Shown here: piece by piece, positions 30,437 through 45,470 of the stretch
Layout of the letters: each line of letters starts with the position of its first letter
How positions within the stretch are numbered: position 1 is the first letter of the stretch
Source of the DNA: Microcoleus sp. CAWBG506
GTDB taxonomy: Bacteria > Cyanobacteriota > Cyanobacteriia > Cyanobacteriales > Microcoleaceae
Direction: 5' to 3'
Length of the DNA: 64,000 nucleotides
Assembly: GCA_020883125.1 (NCBI GenBank)
Contig: JAHREW010000002.1
Coordinates: forward strand, 204,040-268,039
Position numbers and translations under genes: made by a program
Notes under the pieces: model-generated
Database searches by the model: none
What the model saw: the letters and a program-made list of their open reading frames with translations, nothing else
Told to the model about the DNA's origin: nothing

Positions 30437-33400
30437 ATGAATTATTCTGCATCTTCCAATCTGTCATCCCTAGGTAATGTGACTATAGATGTCACTCCTA
30501 TCACTGAAAATCATCAGGAACAGCCCTCTCACTATCCCTCTAGCAGTGGTCAAATCGTCACAACCCAAGGAAACTTCTCCAGTTTCCTCGCACCCCTAAA
30601 CAAGGATAGTTTTAAAGGAGTTGCCAAGGACGTAGAGAACAAACTGAAGGTTGTCAATCAAACCTTGGGAATGCTCGACAACCTCCTAGACAGCCAAGGG
30701 TTTGACGCTATCCTTAACGAAATGTTGCAGTCGATTACCCAGAAAACCGGGGAATTGCTCAATGCCGATCGCAGCACTATATTTTTATTAGACGACGAAA
30801 AAAATGAACTCTGGGCAAGGGTTGCCAAAGATGAACATGGCAACAACCTAGAACTCAGATTTCCCTCCAATGTGGGCATTGCCGGAGAAGTCGCCACCGG
30901 CAGAAAAGGGGTGAATATTCCCTATGATTTTTACAACGACCCGCGATCGACTAACGCCAAAAAAACTGACGAAAAAACAGGATATCGCACCTATACAATG
31001 CTGACGATGCCTCTGATTAATGAAGACACACAAGAGTTAGTTGCAGTCGTTCAACTGATTAATAAACTAAAGGCAGATCATCATAATTACGACCATTTAG
31101 ACGTACAGATAGACAGGCAAGGATTTACCCAAGAAGACGAACAAATATTTAGAGAATTTGCCCCGTCCATTCGCCTAATTTTAGAATCTTCTAAATCTTT
31201 CTACGCAGCAACTCAAAGGCAGCGGGCAGCGACAGCGCTGATGAACGCCGTCAACGCTCTTTCTCAAAGCAGTCTAGACTTAGAAGATACTCTCAAACGG
31301 GTGATGGATCAGGCTCAAGAACTGATGCAAGCCGATCGCAGCACCCTGTGGCTAATTGACGAAGAACGAGATCAACTATGGACAAAAATCCCGATCGCAG
31401 GTCAACTTCAAGAACTTCGCATACCCAGAACCGCCGGTTTTGCAGGTATTGTCGCCCAATCCAGTGAACCGCTACTAATTTCCTTTGACGTATATAACGA
31501 CTCCCGCGCCGAAACTTCCAAAGAAACAGACAAAAAAACTGGCTACCGCACTTGCAGTATGCTCTGTATGCCAGTATTTAATGCCGACCACAAATTGATT
31601 GGAGTCACCCAGTTAATTAACAAAAAAAAACAAGGAGAATACCCCCCATACAATCCAGAAAACTGGCCTGAAGCCCCGGAACAATGGCGAGCTAGTTTCA
31701 ATCGCAACGACATGGAATTTATGAAAGCGTTTAATATCCAAGCAGGAGTAGCCCTGCAAAACGCCAAACTATTTGCTGAAGTCAAACAGCAAGAACAAAG
31801 ACAAAAAGATATGCTGCACGCACTGACAAACGGTGTCATATCTACAGACCAAAAAGGCCATATAGTCGCTACGAATCCCAGTGCCAAAAAATTGCTTGGC
31901 GTTAGCGATGCCCGCTTGGCAGAAGGTCAATCTTTGCGCGATCTAATTAACTTGGAAAAAGGTGATTTTGCCAAGTGGTTCGATGTGGCATTGCACCCTA
32001 CAGACGACAAAGACCGCCAGCAGTATTACCCTGACCAAGTATTGATTGCCTCCGAAGGAGAACAGCAGAGCATAAATTTGTCGATCAATTCCATGACAGA
32101 TGCTACTGACCCCAAAAAAGTTAACGGAGCATTAGTTGTGATGGAAGATATCAGCAGCGCTAAGCAAGTCAAAAACTTGATGTACCGCTACATGACCCCA
32201 GAAGTAGCCGAAGCGCTGCTGGCTTCAGGAGATACAGGATTGGGAGGTAAACGCAAGCACGTTTCGGTGCTGTTCTCCGATATTCGCAGCTACACCACAC
32301 TTACGGAAAAATTGCAAGCCGAAGAAGTGGTAGTGATGCTCAACAAATATTTTGAAGTGATGGTAGATTCCGTATTCAACTACGGAGGTACTCTCGACAA
32401 ATACATCGGCGACGCTCTGATGGCAGTTTTTGGCTCTCCAGCACCCCTAGAAGATCATGCCTGGTGCGCCATGCAAGCCGCAGTAGAAATGCGGGCAAAA
32501 TTGAAGGAATTTAATCAAGAGCGAATTGATAATCGCGAGTTACCGATCAGTATCGGTATGGGCATCCATTCCGACGAAGTTGTCAGTGGCAACATCGGCT
32601 CCAGCAGACGGATGGAACTAACTTCCATTGGAGATGGGGTGAATCTCGCCTCTCGCTTAGAAGGGGCCAGCAAGCAGTACGGCACTGACTTAATCATTAG
32701 TGACAACACCTACCAAGAATACCGCGATCGACTGGAAGTGCGGGAACTAGATTTCATTACTGTTAAAGGCAAAAGCGAACCCGTCATCGTTTACGAACTT
32801 GTCGCTATCAAGCCCACTTACTCCTCCGTTGGCATGGCGCTGACTGAAACAGAGAAAAAAATTGTAGAACACTACAACAAAGGACGTGAATATTACAAGC
32901 AACCTGTTACTCAAACACTAGATAAGGGTGAGGTGGAAAAAATCTTAAAAGATGTGGCGAAAATGCCCGAAACAGAACTAAAAAATCTCTCCTACACGGT
33001 CGATGAACAGTTAGAACGTGAACTCAAAAAATTGTTATATCAACTAAAAAAAGAGTCAGAGTACGATGTAACAAATCAGTCACAAGCCCATAAAATATTC
33101 GAGTCAGAAATTCAAGTGCTGAAATGGGAAGGTATCAAAAACCTGTCGGAAGATGAAGCCACACTCTTGATAAAATCTAAGATCGGAGAGTTATCACCAG
33201 ACGAAATTAAGGAATTGCAAGAGGGCGATGTCAAAAAGATTTTGGAAGCAGATATCAAAGACCCATCAAATGGCAAAATCAAGCGTTTGAAATCCTCACA
33301 TATCAGACAGTTATTGCAGGCAAAAATTAAAAGCCGGGCCGAAGAAACAGTAGCAGAAACGTTAGATGAGGAATTTGTGGAAAATCTGACCCTTGATGGG

Positions 33401-33610
33401 GTGAAAAAGGTACTGAGCGAAATTAAGACAATGTTAGAACCGAAAGCTAAGAAATCTTTTAGACAGGCACTGGGCGAATTTAAGGAGGTTTTGCTCATCG
33501 ATCCCAAAAACAAGGCGGCTAAATTGCACGTCGATCGCTGTATGCTATTTCAGCACAAATTCTCAGATGTACTCAACTGGGATGGGGTGTGGAACCTTAC
33601 AGAAAAATAG
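30437..33610 (+). CDS. cya: Class III adenylate cyclase with tandem GAF and PAS domains, CyaB type
   Basis: A 1057-residue soluble cAMP synthase. GAF-A (about 80-245) and GAF-B (about 265-435) each carry the NKFDE-like segment of cyclic-nucleotide-binding GAF domains (FYNDPRSTNAKKTDEKTGY; VYNDSRAETSKETDKKTGY). A PAS domain spans about 450-575. The cyclase domain spans about 595-790, with metal Asp in LFSDIRSYT near 612 and KYIGDALMAVFG near 656; the Lys there and the Thr of MELTSIGDG (near 727) fit an ATP-specific enzyme. The layout matches Anabaena CyaB1. The C-terminal TPR-like motif is split: KGREYYKQ near 820 and SFRQALGEFKEVLLIDP near 1005 are separated by about 180 charged residues. Confidence 0.94.
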   Translation: MNYSASSNLSSLGNVTIDVTPITENHQEQPSHYPSSSGQIVTTQGNFSSFLAPLNKDSFKGVAKDVENKLKVVNQTLGMLDNLLDSQGFDAILNEMLQSITQKTGELLNADRSTIFLLDDEKNELWARVAKDEHGNNLELRFPSNVGIAGEVATGRKGVNIPYDFYNDPRSTNAKKTDEKTGYRTYTMLTMPLINEDTQELVAVVQLINKLKADHHNYDHLDVQIDRQGFTQEDEQIFREFAPSIRLILESSKSFYAATQRQRAATALMNAVNALSQSSLDLEDTLKRVMDQAQELMQADRSTLWLIDEERDQLWTKIPIAGQLQELRIPRTAGFAGIVAQSSEPLLISFDVYNDSRAETSKETDKKTGYRTCSMLCMPVFNADHKLIGVTQLINKKKQGEYPPYNPENWPEAPEQWRASFNRNDMEFMKAFNIQAGVALQNAKLFAEVKQQEQRQKDMLHALTNGVISTDQKGHIVATNPSAKKLLGVSDARLAEGQSLRDLINLEKGDFAKWFDVALHPTDDKDRQQYYPDQVLIASEGEQQSINLSINSMTDATDPKKVNGALVVMEDISSAKQVKNLMYRYMTPEVAEALLASGDTGLGGKRKHVSVLFSDIRSYTTLTEKLQAEEVVVMLNKYFEVMVDSVFNYGGTLDKYIGDALMAVFGSPAPLEDHAWCAMQAAVEMRAKLKEFNQERIDNRELPISIGMGIHSDEVVSGNIGSSRRMELTSIGDGVNLASRLEGASKQYGTDLIISDNTYQEYRDRLEVRELDFITVKGKSEPVIVYELVAIKPTYSSVGMALTETEKKIVEHYNKGREYYKQPVTQTLDKGEVEKILKDVAKMPETELKNLSYTVDEQLERELKKLLYQLKKESEYDVTNQSQAHKIFESEIQVLKWEGIKNLSEDEATLLIKSKIGELSPDEIKELQEGDVKKILEADIKDPSNGKIKRLKSSHIRQLLQAKIKSRAEETVAETLDEEFVENLTLDGVKKVLSEIKTMLEPKAKKSFRQALGEFKEVLLIDPKNKAAKLHVDRCMLFQHKFSDVLNWDGVWNLTEK

Positions 33611-39849: not shown

Positions 39850-42408
39850 ATGTCTACCGAAACATTAATTAACTGGCTAGAATCCAACACCGAATTAGGC
39901 ATATTATCCCGCGAGATTTTACAGGCGATCGCTAGCGAAATACAACTAGCAACCTTTGGGCCTGGATTTCGAGTGGTGATCGAAGACACCCCTGTCACAA
40001 ATCTTTATATCCTAGAACGAGGACAAGCCGATCGATACCGCCGCAAACAACCGGGCTTAATGTGGGGTAGTAGTTTATTACCAGGGGCGATCGTCAATTT
40101 ATCTGCCCTCCAACGTTCACAACCAGCAGATAGTCGAATTGTCGCTAGGACAGAATGTCAATTTTTGGTAATTAATGCCGATCGCTGGCGCAGTTTGCTC
40201 GCAACATATCCACGCATCACCGAAGCCTATACCCAACGTTTAGCGACGAAACTAGAACAGCTAGAAACAGAAATCGCCTACGATAGAGAGCGTCAAAATG
40301 CCCTCCGCAGCTATCTAGTACCCAGGGCGAAACGGGGAATAGTTGGGAATAGCCGTTACGCAGTGAAATTGCGCCAACAAATTCGCACAGCATCTAACGA
40401 CGCTCGATCCGTATTAATCTCTGGCGAACCGGGGTTAGAAAAAGATAATTTAGCCGCTTTAATTCATTTCGGTTCTCATCGCCGCAGCGAGCCAGTGATT
40501 CAGCTAAAAAGTGCCTTGCTTCAAACAAATGGAGCAGAATTATTCGGGCGTTTGGGCGGTAAACCTGGACTCTTGGAATGGTTGGGTGAAGGGACGTTAA
40601 TTTTAAATGATGTGCAAGAATTACCAGAGCAATTATGCCCTCAAATTCAGCAATTATTAACTGATGGAACCTATACACTAACAGTCAAAGAAGGACAAAT
40701 ACCACCCCCACCACGTTCTAGTAATGCTCGCATCATTTTAATTTCAGAAACCTTTCAACCACAGCTCGACAAGCTGACACACCATAAGATTAAAGTACCC
40801 TCGTTGCGGGTCAGGAAAACAGATTTAGAGGCACAGGTTAACTATTATCTCAACCTCCTTTGCCGCCAAAAAAAATTAGAAAAGCCCCAAGTCACGCCGG
40901 AAGCTATTCGCCGCTTGCAAGCCTACGACTTTCCAGGGAACTTGCGGGAATTAGAAGGAATGGTCGATCGCGCCTTAGTTCAAGCACAGGGAAATCAGGT
41001 ATTAACAGAAGAAGTGTTTTGGGCCCAGGCCACTAAGAAACAAAAATTTCGACTGAATTTATTAAATATCTATCCTAAATTTCGGCAGTTTTTACGGAGC
41101 GATTGGTATCCAGATCGCGTAAATTATTGGTTTACCAGTTGGATATTTGCATTGGTGGTAATCATCCTGTTTGTCGCCCCCCAAGATAGACAACATAATT
41201 TTGCCCTCAATATTTTTTGGGCGTGGTGGTGGCCCTTAATTTTATTATTATTTCCCCTGATTGGGCGATTGTGGTGCGCTTTTTGCCCGTTTATGATTTA
41301 TGGGGAAATCGTCCAAAAACTATCGCTGAAAATTTTCCCTCGAACTCTGCATAAATGGCCGCGCCAACAAGCTGAAAAATGGGGTGGTTGGTTTCTCTTC
41401 GGACTATTTACCCTCATATTTCTGTGGGAAGAGTTGTGGGATTTAGAAAACACCGCCTATTTATCCAGTTGTTTGTTATTACTCATCACCGCCGGGGCTG
41501 TAATTTTTTCCCTCATTTTCGAGCGACGATTGTGGTGTCGTTATTTATGCCCCATCGGGGGAATGAATGGCTTATTTGCTAAACTCTCAATTATCGAACT
41601 CCGCGCCCAACAAGGAACCTGTGCCGCTGAATGTACTACCTACCATTGTTATAAAGGCGGCCCCGGCTTGGGAGAAGGATTAACCACTAATGGATGTCCG
41701 ATTTATTCCCATCCCGCCCAATTAACTGATAATAAAGATTGCGTCTTGTGCATGACTTGCTTAAAAGCCTGCCCCCATCGATCGGTAGAATTAAATCTGC
41801 GCCCCCCTGGAATCGAATTATGGACTACCCATGTTCCCCACAGTTATGAAGTCGCCCTGTTATTTCTCTTATTAGGCGGCATCTATCTCCATCGCTTACC
41901 TGAAATCAATGATTTATTAGGACTAGGCATCAATTTAGACCAATTTATCCCTCATTTAGGAATTTCGCTCGCGGTGTTAATTATTCCGCCCCTGATTCCC
42001 CTAGCCGCCTACGCAGTCATGCAGGCAATTTATCAATTGGGAAAAGCACAAACCATGCCATTTACCACCTATAAACCTCTCTCCTTTGTCTCCCTCGCTT
42101 ACGGTTATTTACCCCTAGTCTGGGGCGGGAGTTTGGCTCACTATTGGCGATTGGGTTTGCAGGAAGGCGGGCGAGTGATTCCCGTAACTTTTGCCACTTT
42201 CGGACAAATTAGAGAAGATTTACCAAGTTTTGTCGGCGATCCGGCTGTGATTAGTTTCTTGCAAGGCTTAACTTTAATTGTAGGATTGTTAGTAACGATA
42301 TTTGTGACTCAAAAAATTGCCAAGCGCTCCCTTAAATCTTTGATTCCACAGCATTTAGCGAGTTGGTGTCTGATGGTAAGTTTGTGGTATGCGATCGTGG
42401 GTAACTAA
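39850..42408 (+). CDS. Fusion of cNMP-binding, degenerate sigma-54 AAA+ and 4Fe-4S polyferredoxin membrane domains
   Basis: An 852-residue fusion. Residues about 10-130 form a CRP-like beta-roll (RVVIEDTPVTNLYILERGQAD). Residues about 155-375 resemble a sigma-54 activator AAA+ domain, but Walker A reads GEPGLEKD instead of GExGTGKE, Walker B reads LILNDVQEL, and the GAFTGA loop is missing between ELFGRLGGK and GLLEWLGEG; PGNLRELEGMVDRAL is kept. A NapH/NosR-like part starts near 425 with membrane segments, WCAFCPF near 474, WCRYLCPIGG near 563, CAAECTTYHC near 592 and the ferredoxin motif CVLCMTCLKACP near 631, then more membrane segments. It probably moves electrons at the membrane under control of a bound ligand. 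Cyanobacteria lack sigma-54. Confidence 0.9.
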   Translation: MSTETLINWLESNTELGILSREILQAIASEIQLATFGPGFRVVIEDTPVTNLYILERGQADRYRRKQPGLMWGSSLLPGAIVNLSALQRSQPADSRIVARTECQFLVINADRWRSLLATYPRITEAYTQRLATKLEQLETEIAYDRERQNALRSYLVPRAKRGIVGNSRYAVKLRQQIRTASNDARSVLISGEPGLEKDNLAALIHFGSHRRSEPVIQLKSALLQTNGAELFGRLGGKPGLLEWLGEGTLILNDVQELPEQLCPQIQQLLTDGTYTLTVKEGQIPPPPRSSNARIILISETFQPQLDKLTHHKIKVPSLRVRKTDLEAQVNYYLNLLCRQKKLEKPQVTPEAIRRLQAYDFPGNLRELEGMVDRALVQAQGNQVLTEEVFWAQATKKQKFRLNLLNIYPKFRQFLRSDWYPDRVNYWFTSWIFALVVIILFVAPQDRQHNFALNIFWAWWWPLILLLFPLIGRLWCAFCPFMIYGEIVQKLSLKIFPRTLHKWPRQQAEKWGGWFLFGLFTLIFLWEELWDLENTAYLSSCLLLLITAGAVIFSLIFERRLWCRYLCPIGGMNGLFAKLSIIELRAQQGTCAAECTTYHCYKGGPGLGEGLTTNGCPIYSHPAQLTDNKDCVLCMTCLKACPHRSVELNLRPPGIELWTTHVPHSYEVALLFLLLGGIYLHRLPEINDLLGLGINLDQFIPHLGISLAVLIIPPLIPLAAYAVMQAIYQLGKAQTMPFTTYKPLSFVSLAYGYLPLVWGGSLAHYWRLGLQEGGRVIPVTFATFGQIREDLPSFVGDPAVISFLQGLTLIVGLLVTIFVTQKIAKRSLKSLIPQHLASWCLMVSLWYAIVGN

Positions 42409-42592: not shown

Positions 42593-44119
42593 ATGAGCGA
42601 ATTATCAACAAAGCCAGCCAAAATCACCAAAGTCATCCCCGACAGCATCGCCGCCGAAATCGGATTTGATGCCGGTGACTCAATCCTGGCCATCAACGGT
42701 CAAAAACCCCGCGATTTAATCGACTATCAATTCCTATGCGCCGATGAATTTCTCGAACTAGAAGTATTAGACACCAAAGGCAAAATCCACAAATTAGAAA
42801 TCGAAAAAGATTACGACGAAGATTTAGGTTTAGAATTTGAAACAGCCCTTTTTGACGGGCTGATTCAGTGCAATAATCGCTGTCCTTTCTGCTTCATTGA
42901 CCAACAGCCACCAGGAAAGCGCGAAACTCTTTATCTCAAGGATGATGACTATCGACTAAGTTTTCTCTACGGTAGCTATCTCACTCTGACAAATCTTACT
43001 CAAAAAGAGTGGGACAGAATCGAACAAATGCGACTTTCTCCTCTCTATGTTTCCGTACACGCTACGGAACCGGAAGTGCGAATTAGGTTGCTAAAAAATC
43101 TCAGGGCTGGGAAAATTTTAGAACAAATCAAATGGTTTCAAGAACGTCGCCTACAAATTCACGCTCAAGTTGTTGTTTGTCCCGGCATTAATGACGGCGA
43201 ACATTTAGAACGGACTTTGTTAGATTTGGCAAAGTTTCATAGGGGAAATATCCCCACGGTTGCATCGGTGGCTGTGGTGCCGGTGGGTTTAACTCGCTTT
43301 CGTCCAGCGGAAGATGAACTAATCGCTGTCACACCAGAAAAAGCGCGAGAAGTAATCGCGCAAGTTCAGAAAATTCAAGCTGTTTTAAGTCAAGGTAAAA
43401 AAGGCACAACGGCGAAAAAGCTGAAGGCAAAATTCACCCCCCCCAACCCCCCCTTGCTAAGGGGGGGAGAAGATTTAAATTCTTCCTTAGCAACGGCGGG
43501 AGAAGATTTAAATTCTTCCTTAGCAACGGCGAAAAAGCAGAATTCTAAATCGCGCTGTATTTGGCTGGCTGATGAATGGTTTTTAATTGCAGGTTTGGAT
43601 TTGCCGATCGCCTCTGACTATGCAGATTATCCCCAAATTGGTAATGGTGTGGGTTCCATCCGCCAATTTATCCAACAGTTTGAAACTGCTTTCGCTAAAC
43701 TGCAACCGCTGCAAGTTAAGTCGGCGCGAAAATTAATTTGGGTAGTCGGAAATGCTGTGGAAAAAGCTTTTGAGCCGATCGCCCAACGACTCAATCAAAT
43801 TCCCGGCTTAGAAGTTAAGATGGTAGCATTGTGCAGCGACTATTGGGGGCAAAAAATTACTGTCACAGGTTTGCTGACAGGCCAAGACTTGCTCGCAGCT
43901 TTGCAGGGAAAAGACCTGGGAGACGGCATCTTACTGCCTAGTGTGATGCTAAAACAAGGGGAACCGCGTTTTTTGGATGACATGACCGTCTTAGAGCTTG
44001 CTAGCATCCTGAAAACGGAGATTTTCCCCGTTACAGGAGTTGAGGAACTAATCTCAGTGGCGATCGGTCTGGTGAATGCTGAGGTGCGATCGCGCTCTTT
44101 GAGTGAAGGATTAAACTAA
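42593..44119 (+). CDS. Cyanobacterial PDZ/radical SAM (DUF512) protein
   Basis: A 508-residue protein of the family I know as TIGR03279, conserved in cyanobacteria, function unknown. Residues 1-75 form a PDZ-like domain (VIPDSIAAEIGFDAGDSILAING in two parts). The 4Fe-4S motif CNNRCPFC lies near residue 93, followed by a TIM-barrel-like region with VVVCPGIND. The C-terminal DUF512 part holds SDYWGQKITVTGLLTG and DLGDGILLPSVML. Residues about 279-318 are an unusual linker made of a hairpin-repeat peptide (FTPPNPPLLRGG) and two copies of GEDLNSSLATA. The ATG lies downstream of a weak AAAGGCC site. Confidence 0.88.
   Translation: MSELSTKPAKITKVIPDSIAAEIGFDAGDSILAINGQKPRDLIDYQFLCADEFLELEVLDTKGKIHKLEIEKDYDEDLGLEFETALFDGLIQCNNRCPFCFIDQQPPGKRETLYLKDDDYRLSFLYGSYLTLTNLTQKEWDRIEQMRLSPLYVSVHATEPEVRIRLLKNLRAGKILEQIKWFQERRLQIHAQVVVCPGINDGEHLERTLLDLAKFHRGNIPTVASVAVVPVGLTRFRPAEDELIAVTPEKAREVIAQVQKIQAVLSQGKKGTTAKKLKAKFTPPNPPLLRGGEDLNSSLATAGEDLNSSLATAKKQNSKSRCIWLADEWFLIAGLDLPIASDYADYPQIGNGVGSIRQFIQQFETAFAKLQPLQVKSARKLIWVVGNAVEKAFEPIAQRLNQIPGLEVKMVALCSDYWGQKITVTGLLTGQDLLAALQGKDLGDGILLPSVMLKQGEPRFLDDMTVLELASILKTEIFPVTGVEELISVAIGLVNAEVRSRSLSEGLN
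43430..43545. repeat. In-frame hairpin repeat plus 33-bp duplication
   Basis: A C-rich/G-rich hairpin core CCCCCTTGCTAAGGGGGGG (43450-43467) is followed by two identical 33-bp units starting GGGAGAAGATTTAAATTCTT at 43465 and 43498. Both are read in frame by the radical SAM gene. Confidence 0.9.
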
Positions 44120-44129
44120 AAAGTCACCT

Positions 44130-45470
44130 TAATGTTGCAAGGAGGCTCCCGCTATAACGAAGTTTAGCGGCGAGAGGAATTGCAACCAGTATAAACGTGC
44201 GACAGCACAACGGCAATAATTAAGCTATACTCATAGTAGTGAGTTTTTTGGTGAGATGGAACAAGTCCTGACTTTAGTTGTAAAGCTTCAAGCTAGTATC
44301 GAACAGCAACAATTGTTGTCCGAGACAGCTTATGCTTTTGCGTCAGCTTGTAACTGGATTAATCAAAATGTTAATCATAACCTAACTAACAGAAACTCAA
44401 TCCAAGCTGTCTGTTACAAAGATGTGAAAGAACAGTTTGGACTAACAGCTAACCATGTTGTTAGAGCTTGTGCCAGAGTAGGAGCCAATCGTCTAACGGC
44501 AAAACAGAAAGGGAAAAAGGTCAAGAGCTTTAAGCCCACTAGCTTTGATTGTGATGCTAGGACTTTTCGTTTCGTTGAGTCAAATTGGACGGTGAGCATT
44601 TCTACAACTCTCAAGCGGTTAACAGTTTCTTTGAGAGCTAGTAACTACCATAAGGGCAAGCTAACAGGTCATAATCCTACTTTGGCTCAAGTTTGTTTGC
44701 ACAAAGATGGTTGCGGGTACGTCCATATTCAGATCAAATCGGAAACTGCGAAACCTCAAAAAACAACTAACGTAATTGGTGTCGATTTCGGAAGGCGTGA
44801 TCTAGCTGTAACTAGCACAGGTAAATCGTGGTCAGGTAAGGAGATTCAAAAAACTAGAGATAAGTATAGCCGTGTTCGGGCTTCTTTGCAAAAAAAAGCA
44901 TCTCAAGGCACAAGGTCATCTAGACGTAGAGCTAGACAGATTTTGAAACGGTTAGGAGGTCGTGAAAGAAGATACCAAGCATGGCTAAATCATAACATCT
45001 CAAAAGCCATTATTAATGATGCAAAACAGACTCAATCCTTTGTTTCAATCGAAGATTTAACAGGGATTCGCGAACGGACTAACTCTAAACCCAGAAACAA
45101 GACTGAAAGAAGAAGGTCTAATTCTTGGGCTTTTTATCAGTTAAGAACGTTTCTCGAATACAAAGGAATAAAGGAAGGGATTGAGGTAGTTGCCGTCAAT
45201 CCAGCCTATACGAGCCAAAGTTGCCATTGTTGTTTGCATATCGGTGTCAGAACCGAGAAGAAGTTTAAGTGCAGCAATAAAGTCTGTGGTTGGATTGGTG
45301 ATGCAGACGAAAATGGCTCGAAGATGATTGCATTATTGGGGGCGAGTGTAAGCCGTCCTAGAGGTTCTGAGTTGTTGTCTTGTGCAATCGCTCAAGGGCT
45401 ACCAAAAGCCCCCACTATAGCGTTAGCTTAGTGGCGGGTAGTTTACAACAGAGAGTTAATCTAACCAGGG
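44130..45470 (+). mobile_element. IS200/IS605-type element carrying only tnpB
   Basis: Approximate limits. The left flank has a hairpin near 44150-44175 (CCGCTA...TAGCGG) and the right flank a similar one near 45413-45438 (CCACTATAGCG...TTAGCTTAGTGG) overlapping the tnpB stop codon. Neither end has inverted terminal repeats, as is normal for this family. No tnpA is present, so it can move only with TnpA from elsewhere. The 3' end of tnpB and the right hairpin are the expected place for the guide (omega) RNA. Confidence 0.65.
44256..45431 (+). CDS. tnpB: TnpB, RNA-guided endonuclease of an IS605-type element
   Basis: A 391-residue transposon protein related to Cas12. The RuvC-like catalytic residues are visible: Asp in VIGVDFGRRDLAV near 177, Glu in VSIEDLTGI near 265, and Asp in IGDADENGSK near 348. 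The four-Cys zinc ribbon is present (SCHCC, then KCSNKVCG). In the last motif the usual DxNAA is DENGS, a small deviation. The length agrees with active TnpB, and the frame is intact. TnpB proteins cut DNA at the empty donor site with a transposon-end RNA; here the RNA would come from the 3' end of the gene. A TATACT-type -10 box lies at 44226. Confidence 0.9.
   Translation: MEQVLTLVVKLQASIEQQQLLSETAYAFASACNWINQNVNHNLTNRNSIQAVCYKDVKEQFGLTANHVVRACARVGANRLTAKQKGKKVKSFKPTSFDCDARTFRFVESNWTVSISTTLKRLTVSLRASNYHKGKLTGHNPTLAQVCLHKDGCGYVHIQIKSETAKPQKTTNVIGVDFGRRDLAVTSTGKSWSGKEIQKTRDKYSRVRASLQKKASQGTRSSRRRARQILKRLGGRERRYQAWLNHNISKAIINDAKQTQSFVSIEDLTGIRERTNSKPRNKTERRRSNSWAFYQLRTFLEYKGIKEGIEVVAVNPAYTSQSCHCCLHIGVRTEKKFKCSNKVCGWIGDADENGSKMIALLGASVSRPRGSELLSCAIAQGLPKAPTIALA

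Follow-up and report, generated by a model that had tools for sequence, protein, structure and literature searches.

A widespread cyanobacterial fusion of a sigma-54-activator-type AAA+ domain with a NapH/NosR-like Fe-S membrane module: a candidate electron carrier with a proposed control head

Membrane proteins of the NapH and NosR type share with RdhC four transmembrane segments and two CX3CP motifs, and NapH has been proposed to oxidise quinol (accessible text of PMC5928378). Among relatives of the sigma-54 activators that lack the GAFTGA loop, TyrR, DhaR and HupR (and VpsR, judged by sequence) are or seem to be sigma-70 dependent, and R. capsulatus NtrC requires the binding of ATP, not its hydrolysis. 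These proteins set a precedent for an AAA+ domain acting without sigma-54; all are transcription regulators, and no fusion to an iron-sulphur (Fe-S) membrane module is described in the accessible text of PMC3162934 and PMC10274813. Here we describe a gene in which both kinds of domain are joined, at positions 39850..42408 (+) of a 64,000-nucleotide window from Microcoleus sp. CAWBG506 (contig JAHREW010000002.1, positions 204,040 to 268,039; coordinates below are those of the window). It encodes a protein of 852 amino acids (aa), in which a cyclic nucleotide monophosphate (cNMP)-binding fold, an AAA+ domain and a membrane Fe-S module follow one another. The reading that we favour, to which we would give about an even chance, is that it is a quinone-linked, cytosol-facing Fe-S electron carrier, with a non-hydrolysing AAA+ head that controls assembly or partner docking.

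The open reading frame (ORF) is complete, as indicated by the ORF call, by its Pfam and NCBIfam domains and by one-frame orthologues of similar length. In the Pfam scan, the cNMP-binding fold (PF00027; aa 36-120, 39955..40209, +) scored 35.3 bits against a curated cut-off of 27.5, the AAA+ core of sigma-54-activator type (PF00158, Sigma54_activat; aa 164-276, 40339..40677, +) 40.1 against 20.2, the AAA+ lid (PF25601, AAA_lid_14; aa 320-389, 40807..41016, +) 52.3 against 27, and PF12801 (Fer4_5), on the membrane module, 34.5 against 22. The domain set that a sequence-only reading had named for this gene (CRP-like fold, sigma-54-type AAA+, Fe-S membrane module) was therefore recovered entirely above curated cut-offs. 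All NCBIfam matches fell below threshold: on the AAA part they were to NtrX and other activators (at best 100.4 bits against a cut-off of 600), on the membrane part to NapH (49.3 bits against 213.05). An AlphaFold model of the whole protein had a predicted local distance difference test score (pLDDT) of 81.2 and a predicted template-modelling score of 0.53.

An assembly artefact, or two genes joined by error, was ruled out because dozens of genera have the fusion as a single open frame; it is spread across the cyanobacteria and rare in planctomycetes. The sequence-only reading had itself named such an artefact as one case that would undo it. A protein 96% identical is encoded by Microcoleus sp. 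EPA2, and matches at E 0.001 or better were present in 40 of 59 near relatives (the window's genome counted; some are to the paralogue or weak). A contig scan of genomes, which picks up close relatives only, gave 70 loci, 68 of them cyanobacterial and two from anammox planctomycetes. Across the cyanobacterial phylum sample 171 of 386 genomes matched; outside the class the matches were weak (best 3.0e-19) and mostly to the membrane part alone, and some genomes (G289, G316, G372) gave split or short matches. In Planctomycetota, the other phylum sampled with the full protein or profile, long profile matches occurred in just 3 of 199 genomes (G424, G452 and G515, the last, at locus L149, being left out of alignments because the longest ORF taken there was in a different frame); the remaining listed matches were ordinary activators, or the module without AAA (G489). 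We found no description of the fusion in a literature search with limited coverage of subscription journals, and the cyanobacterial protein is widespread and apparently unstudied. Synechocystis slr0593, a "cAMP binding membrane protein", was considered as a possible studied homologue and set aside; the accessible text of PMC3516471 lists only its expression.

The membrane part has four predicted helices (aa 419-556, 41104..41517, +; AlphaFold helices, hydropathy and charge count), a CX2CP motif (C476 and C479; 41275..41289, +), a CX3CP motif (C563 and C567; 41536..41553, +), two [4Fe-4S] motifs (C591, C595, C600 and C616, then C631, C634, C637 and C641; 41620..41775, +) and, past the NapH-like part, a C-terminal block of more predicted helices (aa 665-849, 41842..42396, +) with no fold match in the PDB. 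In the AlphaFold model the four helices are followed by a ferredoxin-like stretch and about five more helices. Two alignments, with 47 and 48 members drawn from two phyla, showed all 12 cysteines to be invariant, and over 118 family rows each was present in every row with a residue at that position, except one row at C616. Eight of them are candidate ligands of the [4Fe-4S] clusters, which are predicted from the motifs; the second motif also gave a weak Fer4 match. Mean identity among 33 orthologues was highest in the Fe-S core (78.7%), followed by the AAA part (57.6%), the C-terminal helices (52.2%) and the cNMP domain (33.0%). Lysine plus arginine counts were 7, 4 and 10 in the predicted inner loops beside the head and clusters and 0-1 in the outer loops, with just 1 and 2 in two short predicted inner loops, and on this basis the head and clusters are predicted to lie on the cytosolic side.

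The four-helix module, the paired-cysteine CP motifs and the two [4Fe-4S] motifs resemble those of NapH/MauN (TIGR02163), to which aa 465-648 gave a partial hidden Markov model match, and of NosR. The identification of a NapH/NosR-like 4Fe-4S module, made earlier from the letters alone, agrees with the Fer4_5 match, the partial NapH match and the 12 invariant cysteines. The fusion protein differs from NapH and NosR in that its first cysteine pair is CX2CP rather than CX3CP, and in its extra C-terminal helices and its AAA and cNMP heads; NosR also has a flavin mononucleotide (FMN) domain, whereas no FMN-binding family was found in the 852-aa protein in a Pfam scan up to E 1. From these likenesses we infer that electron transfer is the best-supported activity. 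This part of the earlier proposal of a "ligand-gated electron-transfer device" stands, on grounds of homology; the ligand gate is not supported. Related modules occur without AAA, either under a YHS head (L150) or alone (L118, and a Deinococcus plasmid, H3). The YHS-module fusion, from the planctomycete sample (L150, 1021-2931, +), lies beside a second Fe-S membrane protein and an ORF that is haemoglobin-like by eye.

By sequence and fold, the AAA+ core and lid resemble those of the bacterial enhancer-binding proteins (bEBPs) NtrX, VpsR, PspF and NtrC1. The closest PDB sequences to the AAA part were VpsR and NtrX, and the structure prediction that had been called for, by AlphaFold and Foldseek, matched it to the AAA domains of PspF and NtrC1 with target template-modelling scores of about 0.78-0.83. 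As the sequence-only reading had stated, Walker A (GEPGLEKD) and Walker B (ILNDV) are altered in the window protein and GAFTGA is absent. The P-loop GEPGLEKDN lies at aa 192-200 (40423..40449, +), the site of the missing loop at aa 232-241 (FGR..GKPGL; 40543..40572, +; alignment with true activators) and the Walker B position at aa 250-255 (LILNDV, with NN in most relatives; 40597..40614, +). The fusion protein differs from the bEBPs in lacking GAFTGA, the catalytic Walker B glutamate, part of the arginine-finger stretch and a helix-turn-helix (HTH) domain, as well as a sigma-54 match in its genome. HTH domains are also absent from a few accepted bEBP members.

For conservation we used the main clade, i.e., the window protein's cyanobacterial orthologues, together with a Cyanobium type without the cNMP domain, thinned to below 85% identity (100 rows reduced to 60, of which 51 were main clade and nine Cyanobium type). 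Among the 60, no 9-mer within residues 161-390 was more conserved than aa 192-200 (the major residue had a mean frequency of 0.96, compared with 0.67 over the domain), and 314-322 came next (0.95); K198 and D199 were present in 60/60, and position 197 was E in 48, G in eight, D in two, Q in one and N in one. The P-loop region was present in 85 of 90 partly redundant main-clade rows, as GEPGLEKD in 67, GEPGLGKD in six and close variants in 12, always with the lysine, and the Walker A lysine was kept in all 112 family rows having the region. Ratios of nonsynonymous to synonymous substitution (dN/dS; NG86, the window against 10 Microcoleus and Chamaesiphon-type sequences, distant pairs being near or at saturation) were about 0.05-0.12 for AAA, 0.02-0.06 for the Fe-S core, 0.14-0.21 for cNMP and 0.09-0.27 for the C-terminal helices. 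Because nothing else in the AAA domain is as conserved as the altered P-loop, "decayed", the word first used for this domain, is the wrong one: Walker A is changed in sequence, but its lysine is retained and the motif is strictly conserved.

The catalytic Walker B glutamate (position 254) was absent from all 112 family rows with the region, and from all 60 thinned rows, but present in both of two outgroup activators; among the thinned rows, 51 had asparagine at 253 and 52 had it at 254. A second cyanobacterial copy, paralogue 2, has a canonical-like Walker A (e.g., QPGSGKT), asparagine for the catalytic glutamate in 13/13 rows with the region and Asp 253 in nine; the database entry of one such paralogue misnames it "nitrogen assimilation regulatory protein". 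Four anammox rows have asparagine or histidine in place of the glutamate, and planctomycete L148 has aspartate by eye. Judged from these alignments, all members read have therefore lost the catalytic glutamate, and the other changes are characteristic of the main clade in cyanobacteria. A GAFTGA-like string was found in none of 108 cyanobacterial rows with the region, and in both of two true activators from anammox genomes; planctomycete L124 gave a weak GAFTGA-like match. The stretch 300-319, the site of the arginine fingers in activators, has 19-22 residues in nearly all cyanobacterial rows, compared with 31 in these two activators and 28-31 in anammox family members, so that about ten residues are missing from the window protein. 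The planctomycete relatives (Scalindua, Brocadiaceae and G452) show a like order, i.e., cNMP, in some GAF, AAA without the catalytic glutamate, and Fe-S membrane module, but with a Walker A nearer to canonical and loop lengths nearer to true activators than in the window protein; L107 and L108 have a GAF insert and 25-26% identity to it. Taken as a whole, the alignments support a head of sigma-54 type without the features for sigma-54 contact and normal ATP hydrolysis, which seems unable to burn ATP.

Cyanobacteria had been said to have no sigma-54, and the window's genome (assembly 95.7% complete) had no match to PF04552; sigma-54 and its activators are absent from 29 of 29 cyanobacteria in the accessible text of PMC3162934. 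Of the 386 genomes in the phylum sample, 11 matched PF04552 at E 0.001, two of them above cut-off (G164 strongly, G257 barely), and a control of the search was positive in 4 of 14 named genomes. The G164 protein (L119; G164:C1:411956-412339) has 202 aa and a match of 62.1 bits to the sigma-54 DNA-binding domain; no other genome of its family (f25) in the sample exceeded the cut-off, and it is possibly a domesticated or foreign sigma-54 fragment.

In the electron-carrier reading, the membrane module would exchange electrons between the quinone pool and a low-potential cytosolic partner, e.g., ferredoxin, as proposed for NapH-type modules. The AAA+ head, having lost GAFTGA, the catalytic glutamate and a DNA-binding domain and gained a new conserved P-loop motif, would have left its transcription role to become a non-hydrolysing binding or assembly domain, either nucleotide-sensing or locked by the P-loop carboxylate. 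By setting oligomer state or partner docking it could control electron flow, which is our working hypothesis, and the cNMP-fold head would be an optional accessory. Judged by the alignments, the redox core is constant, the AAA head is kept with its new P-loop and the cNMP head is optional. We raise more tentatively, and as a joint proposal, that an activator ATPase was turned into the non-hydrolysing control head of an electron carrier of quinone-ferredoxin type, the glutamate of GEPGLEKDN lying in the phosphate site and either keeping the head in a nucleotide-bound-like state or causing it to bind a different ligand, and that the membrane module took the place of the DNA-binding output domain, so that the input-motor-output plan would end in electron flow, not transcription. 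Many cyanobacteria, without sigma-54, keep a conserved relative of its activators welded to a redox membrane protein. Ferredoxin-quinone routes in cyanobacteria are still debated, and control of electron flow by the AAA head, if real, would represent a novel mode of quinone-pool regulation.

Several observations weigh against this reading. The membrane module had no fold match in the PDB at E 0.001 (Foldseek) and, among solved structures, weak ferredoxin-like sequence matches only (best E 0.022), and pLDDT fell below 50 at 587-634, i.e., in the poorly modelled ferredoxin region. Eight of ten Cyanobium-type rows retain Asp 253, and Mg-nucleotide binding may therefore differ between clades. The gene is also optional: at one and the same site, some Microcoleus genomes have it and others lack it. 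At main-clade loci no neighbour was conserved beyond genus, and queries for Rieske, cytochrome b, Tll0287 and cyclase gave no match at 73 of them, many with short flanks; because these loci were uninformative, context had to be borrowed from relatives of about 25-41% identity.

A membrane-tethered redox sensor, which would take its input from the Fe-S clusters and act through the AAA head, regulating sigma-70 transcription or another signalling partner, is an unlikely alternative with several points in its favour. The sigma-70-dependent or seemingly so dependent activators without GAFTGA, and the NtrC that needs ATP binding alone, are precedents (accessible text of PMC3162934 and PMC10274813); VpsR and NtrX are the closest PDB sequences, a conserved P-loop fits a signalling head, and RdhC, a relative of NosR, was first called a regulator (accessible text of PMC5928378). 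No HTH family was found in the protein in the Pfam scan up to E 1, however, including one of CRP type after the cNMP domain, and the membrane module fills the activator's C-terminal DNA-binding place; the carrier with AAA control is favoured over a transcription factor because there is no DNA-binding domain. A metal (e.g., copper) reductase or an assembly factor of CcoG type is improbable: the Fer4_5 match and the YHS domain of one planctomycete module relative, a domain linked to metals, speak for it, but that relative is distant.

Gating of the carrier by cAMP or cGMP, as first proposed, we consider decidedly improbable, even though the cNMP domain exceeds its Pfam cut-off. With a crude motif test for the canonical glutamate and arginine of the phosphate-binding cassette, both residues were found in 1 of 98 rows with the region, that of Scalindua L124, and none was recognised in the window's clade. 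A Glu/Asp-type cassette start was seen in three rows, L123 and L124 (Glu) and the paralogue L129 (Asp); the glutamate was also visible by eye in planctomycete L148, and not in L107 or L108. At 13 headless loci (L114, L144, L145 and L146, with nine of Cyanobium type), tblastn of the DNA around the gene detected no cNMP domain in any frame, with two controls (L034, L037) positive, which rules out a head hidden by frameshift. These relatives, which keep the AAA domain and membrane module, occupy about four places on a quick tree, three of them beside relatives with a head; the count of about four losses rests on that tree, whose deep splits are unsure because of the quick method and long planctomycete branches. 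Because the residues are unrecognised in cyanobacterial heads and about four lineages have no such head at all, the "CRP-like ligand gate" is not supported, and cAMP gating is unlikely on sequence grounds to be a core function in cyanobacteria; the carrier with AAA control is favoured because the cNMP head is not required.

In some planctomycetes cAMP gating may occur: besides the glutamates of L123, L124 and, by eye, L148, the Brocadiaceae gene L123 (in L188) shares its strand with a CHASE2-cyclase gene and begins about 300 bp downstream of it. About 6 kb upstream of the fusion gene, the window has an ORF of 1057 aa with GAF and class III nucleotide cyclase domains (30437-33610, +), a point for cyclic nucleotide gating, as against the lack of cyclase matches at the 73 main-clade loci. 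This cyclase is 40.6% identical over 249 aa to that beside the Brocadiaceae relative, and was not seen at the other main-clade loci searched. Least probable is an AAA head degrading as a functionless relic and kept as a spacer only, for which the losses of the catalytic glutamate, GAFTGA and part of the arginine-finger stretch could be cited, but against which stand the P-loop conservation, the low dN/dS and the retention of AAA in all the headless relatives.

Genes near paralogue 2 and the planctomycete relatives were as follows, the Rieske, Hdr, Tll0287 and cyclase neighbours coming from few loci. A cysK gene lay near paralogue 2 at 7 of 13 loci, compared with 1 of 73 main-clade loci; at six it was directly downstream on the same strand, within 540 bp, and the seventh (L112) had interrupted copies. 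Of 15 paralogue loci, three had a Rieske match, as did Scalindua L189; psbA lay near 2 of 13 paralogue 2 loci, but also near 2 of 73 main-clade loci. On plasmids of Pseudanabaena galeata and Aulosira laxa (L185, L186), paralogue 2 and cysK adjoin, with Rieske petC, psbA and a rhodanese-type gene within 8 kb and, in Pseudanabaena, a Tll0287-like gene too; the cluster looks like a mobile photosynthesis/sulfur acclimation cassette. One of the two has a DsrE gene together with a Tll0287-like gene. In Scalindua L189 the fusion gene is divergent from a set on the opposite strand (multihaem cytochrome, unassigned membrane protein, cytochrome b, FAD/Fe-S protein and Rieske), and a Tll0287-like haem protein follows on its own strand. 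An Hdr-like set (HdrB, HdrA-like, HdrC, HdrB) lies beside paralogue 2 in L110, where alone Hdr families were tested, and by eye in L132 of the same genus. The Rieske and Hdr-like genes around these relatives are points in favour of the electron-carrier reading.

A link to nitrogen fixation, for which a phylogenetic profile had been suggested, was rejected. With main-gene genomes sorted by hand, nifD was present in 12 of the 34 that carry the main gene and in 4 of the 25 genomes that lack it (Fisher p 0.14), and outside the genus in 10 of 20 and 4 of 10, respectively (p 0.71), i.e., it does not track the gene; for paralogue 2 the figures (3/4 against 13/55, p 0.057) were too few to use.

At the Microcoleus site, six genomes lacking the gene (L178-L183) keep both flanks, uppP and a TIGR03279 gene, and between them ORFs of at least 80-100 aa, with several different genes in L182 and L181; in a seventh (L184) the TIGR03279 side alone is on the contig. 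Away from the full gene, isolated short matches to pieces of the N-terminal domain (G007:C32, G012:C1, G015:C358, G028:C438) may be what is left of additional copies. In the window, the TIGR03279 gene is followed directly by a TnpB-like ORF (Cas12f1-like_TNB, OrfB_IS605; 44256-45431, +), with no second copy in the window by tblastn. The TIGR03279 radical SAM gene itself (42593-44119, +) has a repetitive insert at about aa 277-313 (PPNPPLLRGG.., and EDLNSSLATA twice). Several orthologues fail to align across the insert, and short stretches similar to it match elsewhere in the genomes; it is perhaps a small mobile repeat within a gene.

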